DNA of 64,000 nucleotides from Alphaproteobacteria bacterium (GTDB lineage: Bacteria; Pseudomonadota; Alphaproteobacteria; Micropepsales; Micropepsaceae): NCBI GenBank assembly GCA_017983635.1, contig JAGOBA010000013.1:1-64000 (forward strand). The letters run 5' to 3'. Within the stretch, counting starts at the first letter, position 1, and every line of letters starts with the position of its first letter. The position numbers and the translations under genes are program-made. A model generated the notes under the pieces. It was not told the origin of the DNA, did no database searches, and saw only the letters and a program-made list of their open reading frames with translations. Shown piece after piece: positions 37,946 to 51,701 of the stretch.

Positions 37946-39964
37946 ATGGCCGGACGACAGAGGGCGATCGCCCCGGACTTTCCGAAGCTTCGCCTTTGTC
38001 TCGGCATCGCCGGGCATCGCGCTAATCATCGAAGCTACGGCGCCAACATCACCGCCATCGTGCGGACCTTCACGCAAGTCTTGGACATCATTCAGGCAAC
38101 CGTTGACGTCGAACTTGGCGCCGGCGCCGCCGCGCGCACGCGCGTTCACACGCTGCTCGCCGACGGTGCCGACCAGCTCGCCGCCTGCGAAGCGTTGCGC
38201 CGGGGCTGGGAGGTGGTGGCCCCCCTGCCCGTCGGCGCCGCCTTGAACTGCGCGATCAACGCCAGACCCGAAAGCCCGGCCGACGCGAGGCAGATCCTCG
38301 CCGGCCACGACCCCGCCGACGGCGACGCCGCGCGGCGCGCCGCCGCCATCCGCAAACTCTACGGCGAAACGCAACTCTTCGAACTGCGCGACGCGGATGG
38401 CGAGATCGAGACCCTATTCGTCGGTGCGCTGACCTCCGATAACGCCGGCGCCCGCTCCGCATTCGATGCCGGCATCTCGGCCCGCGTGGCGCTCGCCGCG
38501 CGCATCGTGCTGGAACAGTCCGACATTGTGCTCGCCATCTGGGACGGCGTGCGCACGAGCTCCGTCGGCGGCACCGGCCACACGGTTCAAGCCGCGTTGG
38601 ACATGGGCGCGCCGGTGGTGCTGATCGACCCGGAGAACCCGGAGCAATGGCGCTTCCTGCGCGCACCAGAAGCGCTACTCCACCCCTCGGCCCCGCCGCC
38701 GGAAGGTGAGCGCCAAGAGCAACTGCGCCAGATCGTCCGCGAAGCATTGCGCCCGATCCAAGCGCAATCGAGGTCGCGCCATCACGCCTCCAAAGGCGAC
38801 AACGGACTCGCCGCCGCGCTTTCGCCCGATCACTGGCGCGCCAGCAGCAGATCGCTCTGGCACACCTACCGCCGCATCGAAGCGCTGTTCGGCGGCGGCG
38901 CATCGGCTTCCCGCTTTCGCCGCCTGAGACAAATCTACGAACCGCCGCAAGCCTACGCGAGCAGCGGCGGCGGCGCGCCGATCGTCAAAGCCTTGCAACA
39001 AGCCCCGGGCGCTGATCGAGCATTCGCCGGCCGCGTCGCCGGTCTGGTCTTGCCACGCTTCGCCTGGTCTGACGGCATCGCGTCCTACCTGTCCGACAAA
39101 TATCGCAGCGGCATGATCATCAACTTCATCCTCTCCGCCCTCGCCGTCATCGGCGGTCTAGCCTACTTGCCGCTGGTCGGGTCCGAGTTGAAGTGGACGT
39201 TTGCGGCGTTCGAGTTGGTCTTGCTCGCCGCGATCCTGGTCATCACCCATCGCGGCCAAAGCCAACGCTGGCACGGACGCTGGTTCGAAACCCGCAGGGC
39301 CGCCGAATATCTACGTCACGCCCCTATCCTGCTCGCGCTCGGTGCAGCACGCGCGCCGGGCCGCTGGCCCCGCGGCGCGGGCGCCGCCTGGCCCGAATGG
39401 TACGCGCGGCACACGCTGCGCGAAGTGGGGCTGCCCCGCTGCACCGTAACGACGGATTACCTGCGTCACTGCTTGAGCGAAATGCTCGACCATCACGTCA
39501 CACAACAACGCGACTATCACCAAGCCAAGGCGCAGCGCCTGACCAACGTACACCGCAACCTCGACCGCTTGTCCGAGAGACTGTTCCAACTCGCTGTCGC
39601 AGCCGTCGCATTGTTCCTCGTCTTCCAGATCGGCGCGTGGAGCGGTTGGGTCGGCGAACACGCGTTCAAGGACAGCACCAAGATCTTCACGTTCTTAGGC
39701 GTCGCCCTGCCCACACTCGGCGGCGCGATCGCGGGCGTGCGCTACTTCGGCGACTTCGAACGCTTCGCCGCCATCTCCGAAGTCACCGCGCAAAAACTGA
39801 ACGCCGTGCACGACCGCATCCGCCTCTTGCTCCGCGCGCCGGACGGCAAACTCGACTACACCTCCGTCGCCAACCTCGCCCACGCCGCCGACGACATCGT
39901 GGTCGGCGAAATCGAAAACTGGCAAGCCGTGTTCGGCGGCAAGCAGATCACCGTACCGGTCTAG
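37946..39964 (+). CDS. SLOG-like sensor fused to membrane segments (possible immune effector)
   Basis: A 672-residue protein. Residues about 15-110 resemble the SLOG/LOG Rossmann superfamily: LCLGIAGHRANH, HTLLADGADQLAACEALRRG and VVAPLPVG. The fold appears to resume at IVLEQSDIVLAIWDG and MGAPVVLIDP. The C-terminal half has two membrane regions, a pair at about 390-435 (MIINFILSALAVIGGLAYLP, then FELVLLAAILVI) and a pair at about 548-598, separated by an Arg-rich helical region. SLOG domains are predicted nucleotide-signal sensors, often joined to membrane-pore effectors. Here the assignment is by motif only. Confidence 0.6.
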   Translation: MAGRQRAIAPDFPKLRLCLGIAGHRANHRSYGANITAIVRTFTQVLDIIQATVDVELGAGAAARTRVHTLLADGADQLAACEALRRGWEVVAPLPVGAALNCAINARPESPADARQILAGHDPADGDAARRAAAIRKLYGETQLFELRDADGEIETLFVGALTSDNAGARSAFDAGISARVALAARIVLEQSDIVLAIWDGVRTSSVGGTGHTVQAALDMGAPVVLIDPENPEQWRFLRAPEALLHPSAPPPEGERQEQLRQIVREALRPIQAQSRSRHHASKGDNGLAAALSPDHWRASSRSLWHTYRRIEALFGGGASASRFRRLRQIYEPPQAYASSGGGAPIVKALQQAPGADRAFAGRVAGLVLPRFAWSDGIASYLSDKYRSGMIINFILSALAVIGGLAYLPLVGSELKWTFAAFELVLLAAILVITHRGQSQRWHGRWFETRRAAEYLRHAPILLALGAARAPGRWPRGAGAAWPEWYARHTLREVGLPRCTVTTDYLRHCLSEMLDHHVTQQRDYHQAKAQRLTNVHRNLDRLSERLFQLAVAAVALFLVFQIGAWSGWVGEHAFKDSTKIFTFLGVALPTLGGAIAGVRYFGDFERFAAISEVTAQKLNAVHDRIRLLLRAPDGKLDYTSVANLAHAADDIVVGEIENWQAVFGGKQITVPV

Positions 39965-40049: not shown

Positions 40050-40520
40050 TCAAGCCTTTTGCGCCTCGCGAATGAGGCCGTCGATGAAGGCGCGGAACTC
40101 GTCGCTGAGCGAAATCGGGTTGACGGGCCACCACGCAAGAAAACCGGGCAAGGTAACAACCCATTTCAGCGTCTTCAGCTCGGCATCGAACAGCTTCTTG
40201 TCCAATGTGCCGTTCTTGTATTGGTAGTAAAGCGTCTCGAAGATGCGCATGTTGGCGAGAAGCATGTAGTTGGCGGATACGCGTTCGTCTTCGTCCATCT
40301 CCTCCGATCCCGCCAAGGTCAGCCGCATAATGCGCGCCACCTTCGGATCGCTGAGGATGAGGTTGTTGATCGCGTTGAAGCTGTCGGTGATGGCGTGATG
40401 CGACGACGCCCTGATCGCCTTCGTATTCTGCCGGATCTGCAGACCGACGAAGATCAGCGACGCGAAAATCCCGACGACGGCGACGATCTGGGAAACGTAG
40501 TAGATGGCTTCGAGGGTCAT
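40050..40520 (-). CDS. Array member A (last gene): MTLE-type membrane-anchored paralogue
   Basis: A 156-residue protein, last of eight tandem paralogues. It starts MTLEAIYYVSQIVAVVGIFA, a single transmembrane helix shared by all members, then SLIFVGLQIRQN. The soluble part (DSFNAINNLILSDPKVAR, IFETLYYQYKNGTLDKKLF, SDEFRAFIDGLI) is closely similar to member E and only distantly to the others. Its ATG overlaps the stop of member B by ATGA. The longer open frame upstream is a shadow. The function is unknown. Confidence 0.8.
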   Translation of the reverse strand: MTLEAIYYVSQIVAVVGIFASLIFVGLQIRQNTKAIRASSHHAITDSFNAINNLILSDPKVARIMRLTLAGSEEMDEDERVSANYMLLANMRIFETLYYQYKNGTLDKKLFDAELKTLKWVVTLPGFLAWWPVNPISLSDEFRAFIDGLIREAQKA

Positions 40521-41068
40521 GGTTGCGGGCTCTGGGTTTCGGACAACGCTGGTTGGGCGAGCGCCGGGCTCGCCGCGTAGAAGTTCTGCGGGAAGGCAAT
40601 GGGTTGGTTCCGCTGCATTTCCTTGTCGACAAAGGCGACGAAGGCAGGTGAGAAGAAGGACTTGCGGGACTGCCAATATTCTTTGAAGCTCTTGCCCGCC
40701 GTCGCGGGCTCGACCCCCCGATGAATCGCCTCCCACGCGTCGTCGCCCAGCCGCCCGGCCGTGCGTTGGATGTAAGCGCGTTCGTACAAGCGCAACAAAC
40801 GCGAAACCAGAAAGACATGCGCCGCACGCCGTTCCACAGAGATCGCCTCCAAACCCCCATTGACGCCTGCAAAGTAGTCTTGCGCGGCCAACGCGTCGTT
40901 CGACCAAGCGCTCAGGATCTGGTCATAGTCCGTCAAAATCTGGTTCATGGTGCTGTAGCGCGTCTCGCGCGTCTGAGCGCGCATCTGCAGCCCAACGAAG
41001 ATCAGCGAGCAAAAGATCGCAACAACGGCGACGATCTGGGAGACGTAGTAGATCTCTTCGAGGGTCAT
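40517..41068 (-). CDS. Array member B: MTLE-type membrane-anchored paralogue
   Basis: A 183-residue protein starting MTLEEIYYVSQIVAVVAIFC with the shared membrane helix, then QMRAQTRETRYSTMNQIL. The cytosolic or periplasmic part is helical with LVSRLLRLYERAYIQ at the position where other members have their F-x-x-x-Y-x-x-K-x-G helix. It also has SFFSPAFVAFVDKEM, the counterpart of the FSxEFRAFI segment. The tail is long and Pro/Gln-rich. It overlaps neighbours at both ends by 4 bases. Confidence 0.78.
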   Translation of the reverse strand: MTLEEIYYVSQIVAVVAIFCSLIFVGLQMRAQTRETRYSTMNQILTDYDQILSAWSNDALAAQDYFAGVNGGLEAISVERRAAHVFLVSRLLRLYERAYIQRTAGRLGDDAWEAIHRGVEPATAGKSFKEYWQSRKSFFSPAFVAFVDKEMQRNQPIAFPQNFYAASPALAQPALSETQSPQP

Positions 41069-41655
41069 GACTTCGGCCCCTCGCTTAGCGGCTTCGTACC
41101 AGCAGGTAACGCGTCAACGCCGTGCAACGCGCTCACGTCCCATGGCACAACATGCGTGGTGTCGCGCGCTTTCTCGATGACGGCGACGAACTCGCCCGAC
41201 CAGATGTTCTGCGTTTTCTCGAACTCCCACCATTGCCGATAGAAGGGCAGCTTGATGACGCCCGCGGCCCAGCTGCTCCGCGCCTCCCATATCGCCTGGT
41301 CGAGGTTGCCGTATTTGTGGAGAAAATAGAGACCCTCGAGCTTCTGAAACAATGCGCGCTGGGCGAGCGTCACACGAGCCCTATCGGCTTCGGAGAAGTC
41401 GTTCCAGTTCTTTTGAGGATCGTATGTGGCGATCGCCATAAGCAGAAACTCATCCGACACATCTGCCACGATCATCTCGTTCGTCAATGCCCATGAATGC
41501 GTGCCTTCGAAAGCGGCCGACGCCTTGATCGAGCGCGTGTTGGCTTTGATCTGCTCGCTGTTCTGACGCACCTGGACGCCGACGAAAATCAGCGACGCGA
41601 AGATCGCGATCACGGCGATGATCTGGGAGATGTAGTAGAGTTCCTCGAGGGTCAT
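41065..41655 (-). CDS. Array member C: MTLE-type membrane-anchored paralogue
   Basis: A 196-residue protein starting MTLEELYYISQIIAVIAIFA with the shared helix, then VRQNSEQIKANTRSIKASAA. It has LFQKLEGLYFLHKYGNLDQA at the conserved aromatic-helix position and WSGEFVAVIEKARD in place of the FSxEFRAFI motif. The C-terminal 25 residues are unique. ATGA overlaps occur at both ends. Confidence 0.78.
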   Translation of the reverse strand: MTLEELYYISQIIAVIAIFASLIFVGVQVRQNSEQIKANTRSIKASAAFEGTHSWALTNEMIVADVSDEFLLMAIATYDPQKNWNDFSEADRARVTLAQRALFQKLEGLYFLHKYGNLDQAIWEARSSWAAGVIKLPFYRQWWEFEKTQNIWSGEFVAVIEKARDTTHVVPWDVSALHGVDALPAGTKPLSEGPKS

Positions 41656-42194
41656 GGGCGCTTCCCATCAGCGCTTAGATCCGACGAAACGAATTTCTGA
41701 GTGACAGGTGTTCCCTGATCATAGATTGGGCTCTGGACTTCCGACGGCAGGCTCTCAAACCACCGCGCAAATTCGGGCGAATGCCAATGTCTCCGGATTT
41801 TCCAGAACCTCTTCACTCCAGGCTGCGTTGCGAACGCCCGTATGTTCACTTCTACGGAATGCCAGTGCTCGGCTTCCAGAACCCCGCGTCTCCACTGAAT
41901 ACGCGATGACTCGTAGAATCGAAACACGTTGCTCATATAGACAATAAACCTCATGCGATCCTGGTCAGTCAGACCGTCAAAGTCGGATAGCGCCTGCCAA
42001 TAGATCCTCGCTATGTCGGCGTCTTCGACGAGCGGCGACGCAACCGAAGTCCACATCGTGAAATGTGTTTGAGACGTGCTCACAAGCACTGCCCGGGTAT
42101 TCTGGCGCAGCTGTATTCCGACAAAGATCAGCGACGCGAAAATCGCGATCACGGCGACGATTTGGGAAATGTAGTAGAGTTCTTCGAGGGTCAT
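41652..42194 (-). CDS. Array member D: MTLE-type membrane-anchored paralogue
   Basis: A 180-residue protein starting MTLEELYYISQIVAVIAIFA, then IQLRQNTRAVLVSTSQTHF. VYMSNVFRFYESSRIQWRRG takes the aromatic-helix position and SPEFARWFESLPSE the C-terminal motif. Codon use in the middle is slightly more AT-rich than its neighbours. ATGA overlaps occur at both ends. Confidence 0.78.
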   Translation of the reverse strand: MTLEELYYISQIVAVIAIFASLIFVGIQLRQNTRAVLVSTSQTHFTMWTSVASPLVEDADIARIYWQALSDFDGLTDQDRMRFIVYMSNVFRFYESSRIQWRRGVLEAEHWHSVEVNIRAFATQPGVKRFWKIRRHWHSPEFARWFESLPSEVQSPIYDQGTPVTQKFVSSDLSADGKRP

Positions 42195-42679
42195 GGGCGC
42201 GAGTCCGCTTCTTTCTTTGCGTCGCGAATGAGGTCGTCGATGAAGGCGCGGAACTCGGCGCTCAGCGAGATCGGATTATTGGCCCACCAAGCGCGAAAGC
42301 CCGTGTGCTCGGTGGCCGTCCATTTCAGCGTTGTCAGCTCTGCGTCAAACAACTTCTTGTCCAAGGTACCGTTTTTGTATTGGTAGTAAATCGTCTCGAA
42401 GATGCGCATGTAGGCCAGCCTCATGAAGCTGACGGATACGCGCTCGTCTTCGTCCAGCCCCTCGTCCCCCGTCAAGCTGAGCCGCCAACGCCGCGCATAC
42501 TTCGGATCATTGGCGATCATATTGTTGATCGCGTTGAAGCTGTCGGTGACGGCATGATGCGACGTCGCCTTGAGCGCCTTCGTGTTCTGGCGCACCTGGA
42601 CACCAACGAAGATCAGCGAGGCGAAGATCGCGATCACGGCGACGATCTGGGAGAAGTAGTAGAGAGTTTCGAGGGTCAT
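42191..42679 (-). CDS. Array member E: MTLE-type membrane-anchored paralogue
   Basis: A 162-residue protein starting MTLETLYYFSQIVAVIAIFA. Along its length it is the closest relative of member A (HHAVTDSFNAINNMIANDPK, MRIFETIYYQYKNGTLDKKL, SAEFRAFIDDLIRDA). This implies a recent duplication across three intervening genes, or gene conversion. It overlaps member D downstream; upstream it is separated from member F by 9 bases, the only gap in the array. Confidence 0.8.
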   Translation of the reverse strand: MTLETLYYFSQIVAVIAIFASLIFVGVQVRQNTKALKATSHHAVTDSFNAINNMIANDPKYARRWRLSLTGDEGLDEDERVSVSFMRLAYMRIFETIYYQYKNGTLDKKLFDAELTTLKWTATEHTGFRAWWANNPISLSAEFRAFIDDLIRDAKKEADSRP

Positions 42680-42688
42680 TGCGTGGTC

Positions 42689-43159
42689 CTATGCGGTGTC
42701 TTTGCGGGCGGCGAGGCTTTCCGCGTAGGCGCGGAACTCGGCGCTGAAGCCATAGGGGTTTTCGTCCCACCAGGATCGGATTCCGGGCAACGAGATCAGC
42801 GTGCGCAATCCGTCTTCTTCGGCCTTCAGGAGTTTCGCCTCGCCCACGCCGGTGCGCGTTTGGTAGTGCATCGTGTCGAACACATGGAAGTAGGACAAAC
42901 ACAACATCTCGAACTGCCACCGCTCGGTCTCATTGAGCGCCATGCGGTCTTTGACGCCGGTTAGCCAGATGCGCGAAAGCTCCGGTGATTGCGCCATCGT
43001 CGCGTTCAGATGGTTCATCGCGCCGGTGAACGACTGGTGCAACGCCGCCCGCGTGGCCGCCGTATTCTGACGCACTTGTACGCCGACAAAGATGATGGAA
43101 ACGAGGATCAACACGACGGCGATCGTCTGGCCGATGTAGTAGATTTCTTCGAGCGTCAT
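42689..43159 (-). CDS. Array member F: MTLE-type membrane-anchored paralogue
   Basis: A 156-residue protein from ATG 43159; the frame is open upstream but that part is a shadow of member G. It starts MTLEEIYYIGQTIAVVLILV, the most diverged helix of the set, then VQVRQNTAATRAALHQSF. SYFHVFDTMHYQTRTGVGEA and SAEFRAYAESLA are the counterparts of the shared C-terminal motifs. Confidence 0.78.
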   Translation of the reverse strand: MTLEEIYYIGQTIAVVLILVSIIFVGVQVRQNTAATRAALHQSFTGAMNHLNATMAQSPELSRIWLTGVKDRMALNETERWQFEMLCLSYFHVFDTMHYQTRTGVGEAKLLKAEEDGLRTLISLPGIRSWWDENPYGFSAEFRAYAESLAARKDTA

Positions 43160-43707
43160 GCGAGGTCCTTCGGCTCTGCTGCCTCGAACGGCGCGGGCGG
43201 CAGACGAAAATGCGGCACGATGTCGGTCCAGAGCGGCAACGTCGCCGCTTCCGCCACGAGGCGTGCGTTCAGGTAGGTGGCGACTTCTTTGTTCGCGGTC
43301 TTGCTGGACATCTCCCACCATGCTTGGCCTCCCGGCGTGTTCAGGATCGACAAAAAAGCCCGCGCCATGCCCTCATGAGACGAGGGACTGATGAGCTTGG
43401 AGCGGTGCTGAAAGAACGCGCCGCTGAAGATCGCTTGCATGTCTGCGGCCCAGGCGTGGAACTGCGCCTGCTGAAACCTGTCGAGGCCGTGAAAGTCATG
43501 CAGCCCTAAGCAAATGGTTTGGAACTTCTCCTCGCTCTCGACGCTCAGCGCCCACCACTCGCGCACCTGATTGAGAAATTCGCGCTGCTCATTCGCGCGC
43601 TCGAACGCGTGGTTCTGGCGCATCTGAAAATAGATCGCGAGCAGCGAGCCCAAGATCGCGACGACGGCGACGATTTGGGAGACGTAGTAGACTTCTTCGA
43701 GGGTCAT
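43156..43707 (-). CDS. Array member G: MTLE-type membrane-anchored paralogue
   Basis: A 183-residue protein starting MTLEEVYYVSQIVAVVAILG, then YFQMRQNHAFERANEQREFL. With member H it forms a subgroup marked by a short Q-M-R/Q-L-R lead, an E-R-A-x-x-Q-R block, and the LSILNTPGGQAWWEM motif (LSLLRTPGGAQWWKY in H). ATGA overlaps occur at both ends. Confidence 0.78.
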   Translation of the reverse strand: MTLEEVYYVSQIVAVVAILGSLLAIYFQMRQNHAFERANEQREFLNQVREWWALSVESEEKFQTICLGLHDFHGLDRFQQAQFHAWAADMQAIFSGAFFQHRSKLISPSSHEGMARAFLSILNTPGGQAWWEMSSKTANKEVATYLNARLVAEAATLPLWTDIVPHFRLPPAPFEAAEPKDLA

Positions 43708-44273
43708 GCGCTTGTTTTGTCCCGTGTGGTTCCTGCCGCCAGATGGTCGAGTTCCTTGAGCCGATTCAAATAGGACGGCGCAAAGTTGAGAAAGTGCGGC
43801 GTAGCGGGATCGATTTCAGGCAAGCGCTTGTTCAAGTGCTTCACAATCTCCGCGCCGATCGTATGCTCTCCGTACTTCCACCATTGCGCGCCACCGGGCG
43901 TTCGCAGCAGAGAGAGCGCCGCCCCTTCTATACCCGACCACGTGCCATCGCTAAAAAAGCCGTCTTTGCGCATGTTCAAGGCCGACTCTGCGATGAACAC
44001 GAATTCGGCGAGACATTTTTCGACCTTCATCTGGGTCAACGCATCGGCCTTTTCGTAGTCGCGCAACCCTAAGATAAATTTATCGAAGGCCCCGTTTTCG
44101 TCTTGATGGACCATCCTCAACCATTCGGCCACGCGCAGTAGTAAGTCACGCTGCGCCGCAGCCCGCTCCATCTTTTGCCCCTGCCGCAGTTGCCGTCCGA
44201 CAAAAATGAGCGAAACCAAAATCGCCAACACCGCAACGATCTGCGAGACGTAGTAGACTTCTTCGAGGGTCAT
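43704..44273 (-). CDS. Array member H (first gene): MTLE-type membrane-anchored paralogue
   Basis: A 189-residue protein from ATG 44273, first of the array and 19 bases after the stop of the AAA ATPase gene. It starts MTLEEVYYVSQIVAVLAILV, then RQLRQGQKMERAAAQRDLLL. The segment from LRDYEKADALTQMKVEK to MRKDGFFSDGTW is repeated almost unchanged in the broken copy at 45.6 kb. The upstream open frame extension lies inside the ATPase gene and is not coding. Confidence 0.8.
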   Translation of the reverse strand: MTLEEVYYVSQIVAVLAILVSLIFVGRQLRQGQKMERAAAQRDLLLRVAEWLRMVHQDENGAFDKFILGLRDYEKADALTQMKVEKCLAEFVFIAESALNMRKDGFFSDGTWSGIEGAALSLLRTPGGAQWWKYGEHTIGAEIVKHLNKRLPEIDPATPHFLNFAPSYLNRLKELDHLAAGTTRDKTSA

Positions 44274-44292: not shown

Positions 44293-45492
44293 TCATTTTG
44301 CGGCGCGCTTCGCGGTCTGCTTGGCCAGTTCCTCCGCGAGACCCCTGAGGCCGATCGCCTCGACGCCTTCGCCTTTCGGGTAGCGCTCGCGCCCGCCGTA
44401 AACGACGAAGGCGCGCGCCGGGCGCACGTCCTCGATGGCCGTGCGGAATCCTCTTTCGAGCTTCGGCGCGCTAGATCGCTTGATCTCGATCGCCCAGCGC
44501 TCGCCGCCTGGCATGTCGAGCACAAGATCGAGTTCGACCCCGGTCGCGGTGCGATAAAAGCTTGCCTCCGTCCGTGGGGGCGCCGCGCCGATCAACGTTT
44601 CGATCACATGGCCTTCCCAGCTTTCGCCAGCGATCGGATGGCCGAGTACGTCTTCCAACGTCTCCAGCCGCAGCAGCGAGTGAACGAGACCGCTGTCGCG
44701 AACATAGGTCTTGGGAGACTTGGTCAGCCGTTTGCCGACATTGGCGTGCAACGGCTGAAGCTTGCGAACCAAAAGTAGATCGACCATCAGATCGAGATAG
44801 CTGGCGACCGTCTTTCCATCGACCGCCAGTGCGCGTGCCAACTCCGCCGCGTTGAACGGCGCGCCTTGGCGATGGGCGAGCATGGTCCAAAATCGGCGCA
44901 GCGTCGTCGCTGGAATGCGCGGCCCGAGTTGAGGAATGTCGCGTTCCAGATAAGTCGTGATGAACGCCTCGCGCCAACTGGCGCTGGTTTCGTCCGACTT
45001 CGCCAGCAAGCTGCGCGGAAAGCCGCCACGGACCCAAAGCGCTTGGGCTTGCTTCGACGAGACCTCCGTGACGCCGATGGGCGAGAGTTCAAGGTATGCG
45101 ATCCGCCCGGCAAGGCTTTCGCTCGACTGCTTCAGGAGTTCGATCGATGCGGAGCCAAGCAGGAGAAACTGACCCGCGTCGCGCCCGGCACGAATGTTGT
45201 CATCAATGACGCCGCGAAGTATCTGGAAGAGACCAGGGGCGCGTTGCACCTCATCAATCACGACGAGGCGGCCCGCACGCGCTCTAAGGTAGGCGCCGGC
45301 ATCTTCTAGTTTCGCCTGATCCGCGGGATTTTCCAGGTCGAGATAGTCGGGCCGACGCTCCGCCCCCTTGACGTCGTGAGCGATGGCGCGCGCCAGCGTC
45401 GACTTGCCGACTTGGCGCGGGCCCAAAAGCCCCACCGCCGGAAAATCGGCAAGCCGCTGACGAACAAGGGGGGTGAGGCAACGTAGAATCAT
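44293..45492 (-). CDS. AAA ATPase with DUF4143-type C-terminal domain
   Basis: A 399-residue protein started at ATG 45492, where the family N-terminus begins (ILRCLTPLVRQRLADFPAVG). Walker A is GPRQVGKST near residue 25, Walker B RLVVIDEVQRAP, and the sensor region LLGSASIELL. The C-terminal half contains the DUF4143 pattern (YLDLMVDLLLVRKLQP, YVRDSGLVHSLL) and a nuclease-like stretch VELDLVLDMPGGERWAIEIKR. Such proteins are common, often isolated, and functionally obscure. A palindromic promoter precedes it and the eight-gene array follows at 19 bases. Confidence 0.85.
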   Translation of the reverse strand: MILRCLTPLVRQRLADFPAVGLLGPRQVGKSTLARAIAHDVKGAERRPDYLDLENPADQAKLEDAGAYLRARAGRLVVIDEVQRAPGLFQILRGVIDDNIRAGRDAGQFLLLGSASIELLKQSSESLAGRIAYLELSPIGVTEVSSKQAQALWVRGGFPRSLLAKSDETSASWREAFITTYLERDIPQLGPRIPATTLRRFWTMLAHRQGAPFNAAELARALAVDGKTVASYLDLMVDLLLVRKLQPLHANVGKRLTKSPKTYVRDSGLVHSLLRLETLEDVLGHPIAGESWEGHVIETLIGAAPPRTEASFYRTATGVELDLVLDMPGGERWAIEIKRSSAPKLERGFRTAIEDVRPARAFVVYGGRERYPKGEGVEAIGLRGLAEELAKQTAKRAAK

Positions 45493-45499
45493 GCTTGCA

Positions 45500-45522
45500 A
45501 TTATGGAGTGTAACTCCGTAAT
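45500..45522 (-). promoter_or_regulatory. Palindrome/promoter of the AAA ATPase gene
   Basis: ATTATGGAGT and ACTCCGTAAT are inverted repeats (one mismatch, 3-base centre) ending 8 bases before the ATG. On the minus strand they overlap a possible -35 TTGTAA and -10 CATAAT 16 bases apart. The layout is autoregulatory-looking, with a very short or absent leader. Confidence 0.5.
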
Positions 45523-45552
45523 TACAAGGTTAATTCCGCGTGAATGGCTCAC

Positions 45553-45777
45553 CTATTCGGCGTCCCGTTCTTCAAATCGCGCCTGAAAGACGATGGCGGC
45601 CAGCGATAGGATGACTGGTTGACGATCTCGTGCGAGCACCCCGCCCTCGTACCACGTTCCGTCGCTGAAGAAGCCGTCCTTGCACATGTTCAACGCGGAC
45701 TCGACGATGAAAACAACTTCCGAGAGGTATTTTTCGACCTTCATTTCGGCGAGAGCGTCTGCCCCTTCGTAGTCGCG
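45553..45777 (-). pseudogene. Broken ninth array copy, related to member H
   Basis: Reading from about 45774, DYEGADALAEMKVEKYLSEV, then FIVESALNMCKDGFFSDGTW, aligns with member H over about 45 residues with few changes. The shared N-terminal membrane module and the conserved end are both missing. After GTW the frame runs into unrelated residues and stops at 45553. It lies on the same strand as the array, on the far side of the ATPase gene, joined to the tail of the FGE-like gene in another frame. Confidence 0.75.
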
Positions 45778-46927
45778 CGTCGCGACGAAATGCTGGGTAG
45801 GTTGCAAGCGCGGCCATGTCCACTATGCTCCCTTTCGGCAGAGGGTCGATGCAATGCCTCATGGCGTAGAAGGGCGCGGCCGCGACGCACGCGTCCCACT
45901 GGGCGAACGTCACCTCGCTGCGTCCAATAGCTTCGAAGAACCTTGACGTGGCCATCATCTCTGGACACTCCGGGCAATCGCGGAAGGTGCGCACGTCAGG
46001 GGCCGGCTTTGACGGTTGGGGCTTCGGCGGCTCGGGCGCGGGGGTCGGTTGCGCCGCTGGCGTGCTTGGTCCGGTTGCGGTTGCGGTCTCGCCTCTCTCC
46101 CCCCGATCAGCGGATGCCCCCTCGTCCTCCTTATCCTCCGACGCGGCGGGCGGGGCGCTCTCGATCGAAGGGTCCGTCGCCAGGCGCAAGATTTCTTCGC
46201 GATCGGCCCAGATCTTGCGGGTTCGAAGATCGATCCCCGCCTTATCGAGAAGGTCCAGCGCTAGCAGAGTGTCGCGCGCTTGGATCGCGCGCGCATCGTT
46301 TCGGCCGTTGCTACTATCAGGGTATATGCGGCCGTTGGGGTAATAGCGTACGACCAGCGCGCCGAGAGCGTTGTAGCCGACGTCATCGGCGGCGATCCAA
46401 ATTGCAGCCTGGCTCGCGCCGCCTTTCGGCACCTGGTCGTATGGTCTGCTCGCTAACACCGCGATGACGCGCGCGAGATCGGTTTTCGGCTCCACCACCT
46501 TCAGTTCGTAGTCGTTGCGGAACTTGACATAACGGCCGAAAGTGTGTGCGCAGGCGGCCGGAACGCTGAACGCTCCCGAACGCTGTCGCGTCTGGGTGAA
46601 TTCCATCGGTTCCGTCGTTACCAGGTTCGTATATGCGGGCGGTGACGACGACGCCTCAACCCTCGGATCGAGAAGCGGCGGCGGCGACACAAAGAGCGTG
46701 CCAGCCGGAATGACCAGAGGCAAATCTTCATCGACCTGATTGACGATCTTCATCGTGATGCCGTCGGGGCACTTACCCCACGCCGTCACCGTGATCTTCT
46801 TTTGCGCGATCAGGACGTGAATACCGACGGCACGTGAGCTCGGCCCGACTTCGGCGTTCAAGGCATAGATCGCTATGCCCGCCACGAGCACAAGCAGAAA
46901 GGCGATCATCAAAGACCCGTGCTTCAT
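45572..46927 (-). pseudogene. Membrane-anchored protein with degenerate FGE-like C-terminus, rearranged at the 3' end
   Basis: The frame from ATG 46927 gives 451 residues. One N-terminal helix (IAFLLVLVAGIAIYAL) precedes a domain of about 270 residues of unknown family (AWGKCPDGITMKIVNQVDED), then a Pro-rich linker. The segment FRDCPECPEM followed by RSEVTFAQWDACVAA is the recognisable start of a formylglycine-generating-enzyme domain, but the intervening part of that domain is deleted. After about residue 378 the gene runs through the inverted repeat and then out of frame across the broken array copy. The N-terminal part may still be made. Confidence 0.6.
45791..45858. repeat. Inverted repeat, left copy
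   Basis: About 68 bases that match the reverse complement of 47041-47108 at roughly 83% with one gap. It covers the last recognisable part of the FGE-like gene, and its inner end contains CTTTCGGCAGAGG. Confidence 0.75.
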
Positions 46928-47046
46928 CGCGCCTCCGGCGAACGCGCTGCAGAAAAAAACATGAGTGCGCCGCCAACCGCACACCCAAGGATGCCCCACA
47001 GGAGCAAGAGGCGGGCGCTTCGGCGTTGTTCCACTCCGAGAGACAT
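46924..47046 (-). CDS. Small single-pass membrane protein
   Basis: About 40 residues from ATG 47046, with one hydrophobic helix (RLLLLWGILGCAVGGALMFF). Its stop overlaps the ATG of the FGE-like gene (ATGA), which supports it as a real coupled gene. A longer frame from 47109 would read through the inverted repeat. No family is recognised. Confidence 0.45.
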   Translation of the reverse strand: MSLGVEQRRSARLLLLWGILGCAVGGALMFFSAARSPEAR

Positions 47047-47108
47047 GGCATCGACCTCTGCCGAAAAGAAGCACCGTGGACACGGTCGCTCTTGCAAGCC
47101 ACCCAGCA
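47041..47108. repeat. Inverted repeat, right copy
   Basis: Partner of 45791-45858. Together they bracket the FGE-like gene and the small membrane protein at a distance of about 1.25 kb. Confidence 0.75.
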
Positions 47109-47664: not shown

Positions 47665-48792
47665 ATGCCCGTTCTGCAATATCTGACGACCACGCATTTC
47701 GATTTTGGCGCCGTGAAGGTGCTGGCCTCCGAGCTCGCGCGGCTTGGCGTCAAGAAGCCGCTGATCGCGACGGACAAGGGTGTCGTTGCCGCGGGGTTGA
47801 TCGAGCAGGTGCTGCACCCGATCACGCCCAAACCCAACTGGCCCATCTTCGACGAGACGCCGGGCAACCCGACCGAAGAGGCGACGCTGAAGGCGTTCGC
47901 GCTCTACAAGTCCGAAGGCTGCGACGGCGTCGTGTGCGTCGGCGGCGGCTCGGCGATGGACCTGGGCAAGGCAGTGGCGTTGCTCGCGGTCTCGGGCGAA
48001 CCACTGTCGCAATTCGATCCCTTGAAGGGCGGCGCGAAAAACATCAAGGGTGTCGCGCCGGTGATCGCGATCCCGACGACGGCGGGCACGGGCTCGGAAG
48101 TTTCCGTCGGCTTCGTCATCATTATGAATTCTGGCCAGAAGATGACGTTCGCCAACCCGCAGATCATTCCGAAGGTCGCGATCTGCGATCCGGACTTGAC
48201 GCTGGGCTTGCCGCCGCTGCTCACCGCCGCGACCGGCATGGATGCGATGACCCACTGCATCGAGGCCGTACTGACGCCGACCGTCAATCCGCCGGCCGAA
48301 GGCGTAGGCTATGACGGGCTGTGGCGCTCGTGGCGCTGGATCCGCCAAGCGGTGCAGAACCCGAAGGACCGCGACGCGCGCTGGCAGATGATGATGGCCT
48401 CGACCGAGGGTGCGATGGCGTTCGTGAAGGGCTTGGGCGCCGTGCACGCGATGAGCCACGCGGCGGGACGCCTGCCCGATCTCAAGCTTCATCACGGCAC
48501 GCTGAACGCGGTGTTCCTACCAACGGTGCTGCGCTATCACGACGGACACGCGGCCGAAAAATACGAACGCCTGCGCTCGTCCATGGGCCTAAACCCCAAT
48601 GCCGACCTCGCGAAGGCGATCGAAGGCCTGAACGCGGAGATCGGTTTGCCGAAAGGCCTCGGCGCGATGGGCCTCACCGAAAATCGCATTCCCGATCTCA
48701 TCCCCTACGCGCTCGGCGATCTCGCGAATTTCGGCAACCCGCGCAAAGCCGGCGCAGACGACTACGCAGCGATGTTCAAGACGGCGATGTAG
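47665..48792 (+). CDS. Iron-containing alcohol dehydrogenase
   Basis: A 375-residue protein started at ATG 47665 (TTGAGGA upstream); the open frame extends farther upstream without a site. The NAD loop GGGSAMDLGKAVALL is followed by IPTTAGTGSEVSVGFV. The iron-ligand region is DAMTHCIEAVLTPTVNPPAE and later HAMSHAAGRLPDLKLHHG. It reduces or oxidises an unidentified alcohol or aldehyde. The TIR-WD40 gene starts 26 bases after its stop codon. Confidence 0.9.
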   Translation: MPVLQYLTTTHFDFGAVKVLASELARLGVKKPLIATDKGVVAAGLIEQVLHPITPKPNWPIFDETPGNPTEEATLKAFALYKSEGCDGVVCVGGGSAMDLGKAVALLAVSGEPLSQFDPLKGGAKNIKGVAPVIAIPTTAGTGSEVSVGFVIIMNSGQKMTFANPQIIPKVAICDPDLTLGLPPLLTAATGMDAMTHCIEAVLTPTVNPPAEGVGYDGLWRSWRWIRQAVQNPKDRDARWQMMMASTEGAMAFVKGLGAVHAMSHAAGRLPDLKLHHGTLNAVFLPTVLRYHDGHAAEKYERLRSSMGLNPNADLAKAIEGLNAEIGLPKGLGAMGLTENRIPDLIPYALGDLANFGNPRKAGADDYAAMFKTAM

Positions 48793-48818
48793 GGCCTGAG
48801 CCACGCGGGAACGCACCG

Positions 48819-51701
48819 GTGGGGAGCGAAGCGTCCGATCCAACCTCGGGCCCGCACGGCGCCACGCACTATCGCGCGTTCCTCAGCTACTCCTGGCAGG
48901 ACAAGGCCTGGGGTAACCGCCTGCAGCGTTGGCTCGAGAGCTACGAGATCCCGCGCGACGTCCCGATCGATCTGGGTCCTTCGCGCCGCCTCGGGAAAAT
49001 TTTCCGCGACGAAGAAGACATGGCGGCCGCCGGCGACATCGGCACCGTCGTGCGCGGCGCGTTGAAGGCATCGGACAATCTGATCGTCGTCTGCTCGCCT
49101 CGCTCGGCGCAATCGCGCTGGGTCCAATCCGAGATCGAGCACTTCAAGCAGCGCCGCCCCGGCGGACAGATCTTCGCCGTGATCGTCGACGGCGAACCGA
49201 ACGCCCGCGATCCTGCGCTCGAGTGCTTCCCGCCCGCCTTGCGCGTCGCCTATGGCGACAGCGGCGAGATGCCGATCGAACCCGTTGGCGTCGACGTCCG
49301 CCGCGATGGCCGCGCCCGCGTCTGCGCGCGCCTGGCGGCCGGCATGCTGGGCATCGACTTCGACGATCTTTGGCACAGAGACCGCCGCCGCGCCGAAAGG
49401 CTCAACCGCATAAGGCTCGTCGTGCTCAGCGCCTTGACCGTGGCGTTCGCAGCGCTCGCGATCGCCGCCGTCGTGAACGCCAACAGAGCCCACCTCGCAC
49501 TCAGCCAATTCTTCGCCGAACGCGCCTGGGCGAAGCTCGATGTCGGCGATCCGCTGTCGGCAACGAGATACGCGCTCGCGGGTGGGCAACTCGCGCCGCA
49601 GAACGAACCGCTCTACCTGGCCGCCCTCGGCGCGATTTCACACGAAAGCAGCGACAGCCTGCCGCCGCTCTCGCACGACGATGAAGTCACCGCCGCAAAC
49701 TACTCGCCCGACGGCGCGTTTGTCGTCACTGCAAGCCGCGATCGCAGAGCAAAAATCTGGGACGCCCGCAAAAGCACCCTGGTGGCGCAGCTCGATCACA
49801 GCGGCGCCGTCAGCACGGCCGCGTTCGCCGCCGACAGCCAATCGCTCGCAACCGGCGATGCCGACGGCACCATCAAACTATGGCGGCGCGGCAACTGGTC
49901 CAAAGCGCGCAGCTTCAAAGGAACCGGCACCGCGCTGGTCAGCGCCGCCTTCCTCGGCCGCGAGCACCGCCTTCTCTGCCTCGACAAAGCGCACGCCGTC
50001 TTCGTGCTCGACACCGATACCGGCCATACCCTCACGATTTCGCCAAGCGTGAAGGAGGAGTACTTCATCTGGAACGTCGCCGGCTCCACCGACGGCAAGC
50101 GCATCGCCGTCGCCCGTGAAGATGGGGATGCACGCATCTATGACGCCGCCACCGGCGCCCAGGTGCACCACCTTCAGGGACACAGCGGCGCCGTTTGGAG
50201 CGTCGCGTTTTCGCAGGACGGCACCCGCATCGTCACCGCCAGCGCCGACCACACCGCCATCGTTTGGGACACGGTCAGCGGCAAGCGCCTCAAAACGCTC
50301 ACCGGTCACACGCTCGAACTCTATAGCGCCTCGTTTTCGCCCGATGGCAGCAGCATCGTCACCGCCGCCGCCGACCAAACCGCAAAACTATGGGACGCGC
50401 GCGCCGGCGAGTTGATCGAAACGCTGCAGGGCCACAGCAACGTCGTGACCGGCGCCTCGTTCGCGGTCGACGGCACGTTGATCGTGACGGCGAGCGCCGA
50501 TGGCGCCGCCCGCGTCTGGAACGCGCAGGGCAAGCTTATCAACACACTGCGCGGGCACGCAGCGGGCTTGAGCGCCACGCACATCGCGCCCGACGCCCGC
50601 ACGATCGTGACCGCGAGCGCCGACGGCACCGCGCGCCTCTGGCCGCTGCCGCAAAGCCGCCTTTTGGCGACACTCCCCTCGAACGCCGGCGGCTTCTCCA
50701 GCGTCGAGTTCTCGCCCGACGGCGCGCGCATCATTGCCTCGACGTTGTCAGGCGTGGTGCTGGAATGGGATGCGCAAACGCTGAGCGAGACCGCGCGCGT
50801 CGCCGCGCATGTGGGCGAAGCCTACGCCGCGACCTACGCGCCGGATGGACGGCGCTTCGTCACCGCCGGCAAAGAAGGCATCGTGCGGATATGGACCACG
50901 CGGCCCGCACGCGCGATCATGCGCATCGACGACGAGAGCGGCCCCGTCACCGCCGCCGCACTATCGCCCGACAGCCGCCTCGTCCTAATCGCTAATGAGA
51001 CGCAGAACGCGCATATCCGCGACGCGCACACCGGCGCGTTGAAATTGACGCTGAAGGGACACGGCGATCACGTCCGCAGCGCCGCCTACGCGCACAACGG
51101 CACGCTCATTGCAACCGGCAGCGAGGACCAAACCGCCAAACTATGGGACGCCGCCGGCAAGGAGCTCGCGCCATTGCAGGGACACCAACAAGGCGTCGGC
51201 GGCGTCGCCTTCTCGCGCGACGACGCCAGTTTGCTGACCACCAGCGACGACGCCACCGCGCGGGTGTGGGACACGGCAAGCCACAAGCTGCGCGCCACGC
51301 TCACCGGCCACGAAGGCCCCGTCTTCAGCGGCGCGTTTTCGCCCGACGGCCGAAGGATCGCGACCGCGAGCGACGACAAGACCGCCAAGCTCTGGGACGC
51401 CGCCGACGGCCGCCTGTTGGCGACATTGGAGGGACACGAAGCCGCCGTCTTCGGCGTCGCCTTCGCCCCGGACGGCAAACGATTGCTGACGGCCAGCGAA
51501 GACGGCACCATCCGTGTCTGGGACGTCAGCCGCCTCACCCAACCGTGGCAGGCCCTCGCGCGCGACGCCTGCACCAACCGGCTGGGCGAGAAAGCCCGCC
51601 ACTTCAGCGAAACCGAAATCGCCTCCGACCCGCTGCTGCAAAGCGAATGGCAAAGCACCAACCGCGACGTCTGCACGAACGTGCCGCTCTCACCGCGCTA
51701 A
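48819..51701 (+). CDS. TIR-like domain, transmembrane helix and WD40 propeller protein
   Basis: About 960 residues from GTG 48819 (GGGA upstream, just after the dehydrogenase stop). Residues about 18-150 are a TIR domain (YRAFLSYSWQDKAWGNRLQR, RDEEDMAAAGDI, SDNLIVVCSPRSAQSRWVQS), including a Glu in SEIEHF at the candidate catalytic position. A membrane helix follows (LVVLSALTVAFAALAIAAVV). About fifteen WD40 repeats then fill the rest, enough for two propellers. A Cys-containing helical tail closes the protein. Such TIR-WD40 proteins are candidate immune or signalling proteins. It may be co-transcribed with the dehydrogenase. Confidence 0.82.
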   Translation: MGSEASDPTSGPHGATHYRAFLSYSWQDKAWGNRLQRWLESYEIPRDVPIDLGPSRRLGKIFRDEEDMAAAGDIGTVVRGALKASDNLIVVCSPRSAQSRWVQSEIEHFKQRRPGGQIFAVIVDGEPNARDPALECFPPALRVAYGDSGEMPIEPVGVDVRRDGRARVCARLAAGMLGIDFDDLWHRDRRRAERLNRIRLVVLSALTVAFAALAIAAVVNANRAHLALSQFFAERAWAKLDVGDPLSATRYALAGGQLAPQNEPLYLAALGAISHESSDSLPPLSHDDEVTAANYSPDGAFVVTASRDRRAKIWDARKSTLVAQLDHSGAVSTAAFAADSQSLATGDADGTIKLWRRGNWSKARSFKGTGTALVSAAFLGREHRLLCLDKAHAVFVLDTDTGHTLTISPSVKEEYFIWNVAGSTDGKRIAVAREDGDARIYDAATGAQVHHLQGHSGAVWSVAFSQDGTRIVTASADHTAIVWDTVSGKRLKTLTGHTLELYSASFSPDGSSIVTAAADQTAKLWDARAGELIETLQGHSNVVTGASFAVDGTLIVTASADGAARVWNAQGKLINTLRGHAAGLSATHIAPDARTIVTASADGTARLWPLPQSRLLATLPSNAGGFSSVEFSPDGARIIASTLSGVVLEWDAQTLSETARVAAHVGEAYAATYAPDGRRFVTAGKEGIVRIWTTRPARAIMRIDDESGPVTAAALSPDSRLVLIANETQNAHIRDAHTGALKLTLKGHGDHVRSAAYAHNGTLIATGSEDQTAKLWDAAGKELAPLQGHQQGVGGVAFSRDDASLLTTSDDATARVWDTASHKLRATLTGHEGPVFSGAFSPDGRRIATASDDKTAKLWDAADGRLLATLEGHEAAVFGVAFAPDGKRLLTASEDGTIRVWDVSRLTQPWQALARDACTNRLGEKARHFSETEIASDPLLQSEWQSTNRDVCTNVPLSPR

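Follow-up and report, generated by a model that had tools for sequence, protein, structure and literature searches.

Organization of the gene array

The window, by which we mean the whole stretch of 64,000 nucleotides analyzed here from an alphaproteobacterial genome (G000), carries on its minus strand a tandem array of eight genes encoding small membrane-anchored paralogs (H to A, in the order of reading). An ATPase gene lies upstream of the array, and beyond it a fragment of a further copy. The features are as follows:

45652..45792, minus strand: decayed ninth member, an H-like fragment covering profile positions 65-111 (E 6.4e-5 in the genome search, E 6.4e-7 among ORFs)
44293..45552, minus strand: AAA_14/DUF4143 ATPase (Pfam E 1.5e-43 and 2.2e-23), 19 bases upstream of H
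43704..44273, minus strand: member H, ORF of 189 aa, first gene of the array; AlphaFold pLDDT 94.3
43156..43707, minus strand: member G, ORF of 183 aa; ATGA overlap with H
42689..43159, minus strand: member F, ORF of 156 aa; ATGA overlap with G
42191..42679, minus strand: member E, ORF of 162 aa, 74% identical to A; 9-base gap after F
41652..42194, minus strand: member D, ORF of 180 aa; ATGA overlap with E
41065..41655, minus strand: member C, ORF of 196 aa; ATGA overlap with D
40517..41068, minus strand: member B, ORF of 183 aa; ATGA overlap with C
40050..40520, minus strand: member A, 156 aa, last gene; ATGA overlap with B; AlphaFold pLDDT 95.9

The coordinates and lengths of the eight genes, the MTLE-x-x-YY-x-x-Q motif with which every N-terminus begins, and the junctions (an ATGA overlap at six, a 9-base gap between F and E) all reproduce those given in the initial annotation of this DNA. 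Its description of nearly the same DNA over the first 90 bases was correct as to the existence of a shared module and overstated as to degree, the pairwise identity over these 90 nt being 64-88%. Over codons 1-32 (hereafter the 5′ module), the eight paralogs share on average 72% of amino acids and 76% of nucleotides, whereas from residue 46 onward the means are 23% and 41%, respectively, and the soluble halves do differ as strongly as had been described. The transition is gradual and without a sharp edge across the first 135 bases, identity per 15-nt block from the start being 0.88, 0.83, 0.83, 0.66, 0.77, 0.65, 0.49, 0.43, and 0.34. Of the two closer pairs proposed earlier, A/E holds (74%), but G/H (37.5%) falls below both F/E and F/A (40-41%). 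The family in this genome extends beyond the eight genes described at first, to the decayed ninth copy and to seven further relatives located on two other contigs.

The ninth copy is, by reading, nearest to H. A long ORF at 45572-47083, which has no Pfam match, seems to run at its C-terminal end out of frame into this copy, and it appears to have been cut short when a rearrangement brought the array to this place. On the other flank, a large plus-strand protein convergent with the array (37946-39961) has a weak match to DUF4231 (E 0.0048) and on reading resembles SLOG/SLATT-type proteins, a putative assignment. Farther away, a WD40-repeat protein (48723-51698) shows a partial match to the PADLOC profile HEAT-ARM_XIII, probably due to its repeats, and its N-terminus reads like a putative TIR domain.

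Identity of the family

None of the window members scored above the cut-off of any Pfam or NCBIfam model. The only recurrent Pfam match among 73 relatives was DUF6082 (PF19560), found in 10 of them at E values up to 0.5 (best 1e-4) and in one copy from the window genome at 1.2e-4; the similarity in profile extends over both the helix and the domain. The window members scored 10.1 and 12.1 bits and the best copy elsewhere in the genome 23.1 bits, all below the gathering cut-off of 26.7 bits. DUF6082 is thus a sub-threshold relative of window members and own-genome copy alike, and no known family fits the array. A literature search found no paper naming DUF6082 or describing the array family. 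Among the other collections, PHROGs gave one weak holin match (E 0.012), the PADLOC defense profiles gave none at E 0.01 among the seven of eight members scanned, families of immunity proteins gave none above chance, and a sequence search of the PDB gave nothing convincing. In a Foldseek search there was no match with E <1 and no clear structural match; the best fold match (VIA, Z 5.9) lies inside the range common for helical bundles, and the lack of a match does not by itself make the fold a new one. The array family is new and uncharacterized, with no curated family model.

Predicted fold and topology

The AlphaFold models of A and H (pLDDT 95.9 and 94.3) have the same order of helices despite an identity of about 25%. 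The helices span residues 3-57, 59-70, 77-102, 108-121, 125-133, and 140-155 in A, and 3-56, 59-71, 78-103, 109-123, 126-135, and 141-153 in H, which has one extra C-terminal helix. Both models begin with a helix of about 55 residues, within which the membrane span lies, and continue into a compact helical bundle. The mean charge is -1.5 over residues 1-8 and +2.1 over residues 29-45, and these charges before and after the membrane helix, read with the positive-inside rule, indicate an external N-terminus and a cytoplasmic variable domain. The members are therefore predicted to have an N-out/C-in orientation in the inner membrane. The most conserved residues of the anchor recur at a spacing of three to four (Y7, Q11, A14, I18, S21, V25, Q28), and among the seven heptad phases this face scores best, with a p value of 0.02 for the periodicity; the signal is modest, and it suggests that the conserved face may serve helix packing. 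Seven of the eight anchors contain no cysteine, and the single cysteine of B lies inside the membrane helix without a lipobox.

Distribution among relatives

Within the genus, 8 of 11 genomes have members, with 3 to 19 matches each, so that copy number, for which variation in close relatives had been suggested as a check, varies strongly (0 to 19 overall). The largest array, in the genome G004, consists of about 17 tandem genes and lies, by reading, beside the same alcohol-dehydrogenase-like gene as that of the window. Every gene of the window array is matched in G004 by a single reciprocal best partner, with 56-98% identity in the C-terminal part (95% for F), and the order of the genes is changed. 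When a tree is built from the variable parts, every member except G pairs with its own G004 copy; G groups with copies of G004 and of a further genome, G006. In G004, a gene that reads like an FGGY kinase separates the array from the alcohol-dehydrogenase-like gene; the window genome has a similar kinase on another contig, together with two array-type members. From this reading (L049, G000 C24, 7080-13192; L044 15705-17261), the ancestral locus seems to have been split.

Across the order, a member was found in 20 of 64 genomes that are at least 90% complete. Tandem arrays are also present in Robiginitomaculum, Erythrobacter, and Parvularculaceae, and smaller sets elsewhere. The variable parts form types common to several bacterial families; the A/E type, for example, occurs in three (in the window's genus, Parvularcula, and Robiginitomaculum). 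Single unlinked copies, which the initial annotation regarded as counting against its reading, do exist, but in these lone relatives the N-terminal module is often another one (for example, MSLSDLAxxGSF). No phage relative matched and the only plasmid relative is a distant one, and carriage by phages or plasmids was rejected as a description of the family. Some arrays contain, or begin with, further small multi-helix membrane proteins that have no clear Pfam identity (L067:9491-9985, L071:4107-4601, L073:13403-13972, L072:10567-11136, L045:3498-4022); one of them recurs within Robiginitomaculum and another within Erythrobacter.

The ATPase gene next to the window array matches the PADLOC candidate PDC-S01 (E 3.6e-87). 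It is present in 2 of the 11 genus members, is absent from G004, the genome with the largest array, and was not found in 9 of the 11, and is thus not a core part of the array. Of the eight DUF4143 genes that the genus carries, four are situated no more than about 2.5 kb from a member of the array family, including a copy inside the G006 array (L045:1700-2914) and others near single members in G000 (L051) and G006 (L097). The ATPase may mark variable regions that both kinds of genes share, rather than a joint function, and no partner gene common to the arrays was found in the flanks that were read. At the G006 locus L097 (C201, 1-10004), the family member lies amid several similar tandem genes that read like class III cyclases, one of which overlaps its open frame.

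Separate evolution of the 5′ module and the variable domains

At residues shared between paralogs, the module uses the same codon at a frequency of 0.663, against 0.42 ± 0.027 for random synonymous codons. This share is 66% among paralogs and 72% among orthologs in the module, and 45% and 74%, respectively, in the variable parts. In the comparison of G000 with G004, purifying selection acts on every one of the eight variable parts (omega 0.04-0.39). The ortholog modules have a dS of 0.32-1.01, which in five of the eight genes is higher than the dS of the variable part; the clearest case is B, with a dS of 1.01 in the module and 0.28 beyond it. Since the synonymous divergence of ortholog modules is not reduced, slow synonymous change does not explain the similarity of the modules.

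In Robiginitomaculum, exchange is directly visible in a chimeric gene (L068_723), the module of which matches L079_11009 (nucleotide identity 0.98/0.89) and the remainder of which matches L079_9950 (about 0.9). The module data reject the grouping of L068_723 with L079_9950 (AU test, p 5.9e-5), and module swapping in this lineage is thus statistically shown. In the window's genus, the AU test on the 96-nt module did not reject the ortholog grouping in any set tried (p 0.45-0.67), so that here we infer module exchange from the codon argument. The initial annotation proposed repeated duplication, with conversion or selection acting on the 5′ module; repeated duplication is supported, and so is a module homogenized or exchanged by recombination, in view of the codon sharing and the Robiginitomaculum chimera.

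Even across genera, certain codons close to the start remain conserved. This conservation is weak and scattered (0.45 against 0.356), and a nucleotide-level recombination site or signal was rejected. RNA structure in the module was likewise rejected, folding energies being not consistently different from those of synonymous-codon shuffles, and a promoter scan gave no more than chance. Truncated members in several arrays (L079:11512-11682, L085:11189-11344, L045:3991-4140) point to ongoing loss; in L079 and L085, the truncated modules resemble what a deletion leaves behind and not the terminal spare module of cassette arrays. Taken together, the array grows, shrinks, reorders, and shuffles its modules, and its variable domains represent old lineages, each conserved in its own right.

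Comparison with known tandem arrays

The closest known kind of system is the tandem paralog array that recombines at homology blocks, with which the array family agrees in dynamics and differs in protein family, topology, and gene overlap. In the type VII secretion (T7SS) immunity arrays esaG of S. aureus and tipC of Streptococcus, homology blocks drive recombination, loss, and expansion (PMC9484751). The high-identity blocks of esaG measure about 55-100 nt with a divergent remainder, and recombination changes copy number and makes chimeras (PMC9484751). Strings of tandem, non-identical paralogs with homology blocks are seen here as well, and so is recombination between paralogs at the block, in the Robiginitomaculum chimera (AU p 5.9e-5), although the test is not significant in the window's genus. 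By contrast, the proteins and the phylum are different, no toxin or T7SS partner was recognized, the block is single and lies at the 5′ end, the genes overlap by ATGA, and the domain types are conserved across families. The DUF443 membrane immunity proteins of S. aureus (tsaI), for which little recombination is reported, also form a tandem series of membrane-protein paralogs, and their single block of high similarity covers roughly the first 75 residues (PMC9484751); no TspA-like toxin was recognized here in the flanks that were read. The S. aureus lpl genes likewise encode tandem membrane-anchored paralogs whose copy number changes through recombination in a conserved stretch (discussed in PMC9484751; PMC4470592). 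However, they are lipoproteins with a central conserved stretch, whereas the members described here combine an N-terminal transmembrane helix with a domain predicted to be cytoplasmic, and their anchors lack the lipobox signal peptide (seven without any cysteine, B with one outside a lipobox).

Possible roles of the array

We tentatively favor, at somewhat below even confidence, a model in which the anchor is a shared transmembrane assembly interface for members that are made together, each cytoplasmic domain having its own partner. The common helix would pack through the conserved face formed by Y7, Q11, A14, I18, S21, V25, and Q28; members produced from one mRNA would form homo- or hetero-oligomers; and each cytoplasmic domain would have its own binding partner or ligand. 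Through recombination at the 5′ module, the anchors would stay compatible and domain types could be gained, lost, or shuffled. It is tempting to extend this to a “mix-and-match” membrane scaffold, in which recurrent cytoplasmic domain types are combined, in each lineage, with a transmembrane module homogenized by recombination and yield variable hetero-oligomers, but we consider this wider form rather doubtful.

The initial annotation suggested recognition or competition as the reason for the diversity. No positive evidence for this was found, and the predicted cytoplasmic location of the domain, the purifying selection, and the persistence of domain types across families speak against it. In a rival view, the array would be an orphan immunity array that stores many specificities, each member neutralizing one variant of a competitor toxin acting at the membrane or in the cytoplasm. 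The anatomy and dynamics fit those of the esaG and tipC arrays, with their homology blocks driving recombination, loss, and expansion (PMC9484751), copy number varies strongly, and Rhs-repeat proteins are present in both G000 and G004. However, these Rhs matches sit on contigs other than those of the arrays, no toxin gene was recognized beside the arrays in the flanks read, no immunity family matches above chance, and marker genes were not found for T6SS in the genus or for TPS/CDI in G000 and G004, the genomes with the largest arrays. With the selection and the family-spanning domain types added, we regard an immunity role as unlikely.

A repertoire of inner-membrane effectors or sensors, triggered from the cytoplasm by phage or stress and housed in a defense-rich variable region, is less probable still. 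The scattered occurrence in the order (20 of 64 genomes) and the proximity of DUF4143 genes, a PADLOC candidate, to members in four of eight cases would fit such a role, but the seven members scanned have no PADLOC match, the ATPase is missing from the largest array (G004), and there is no phage relative, only one weak PHROG match and one distant plasmid relative. Equally improbable is that plain purifying selection on the protein sequence of the anchor keeps the N-termini alike without conversion; the anchor is indeed conserved between genera, some codons included, and the ortholog groupings of the module were unrejected in the window's genus, but paralog modules share synonymous codons at a rate well beyond chance (0.663 against 0.42), the dS of ortholog modules is not low, and Robiginitomaculum provides a direct chimera. 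A near-neutral array, in which unequal crossing-over at the repeated 5′ module changes copy number without selective meaning, would account for the truncated members and the decayed copy at 45652-45792, but is very improbable given an omega of at most 0.39 in all eight variable parts and domain types that persist across families.

The arrays thus represent an undescribed family of membrane proteins, which several alphaproteobacterial groups carry in tandem sets with as many as about 17 genes. Anchor and variable domain evolve separately within the same protein: anchors are exchanged among array mates, and domain types span families. If the anchor is truly a shared assembly interface, as in the model that we favor, the family would be a natural system for hetero-oligomer diversity and for recombination-driven modularity at the inner membrane.
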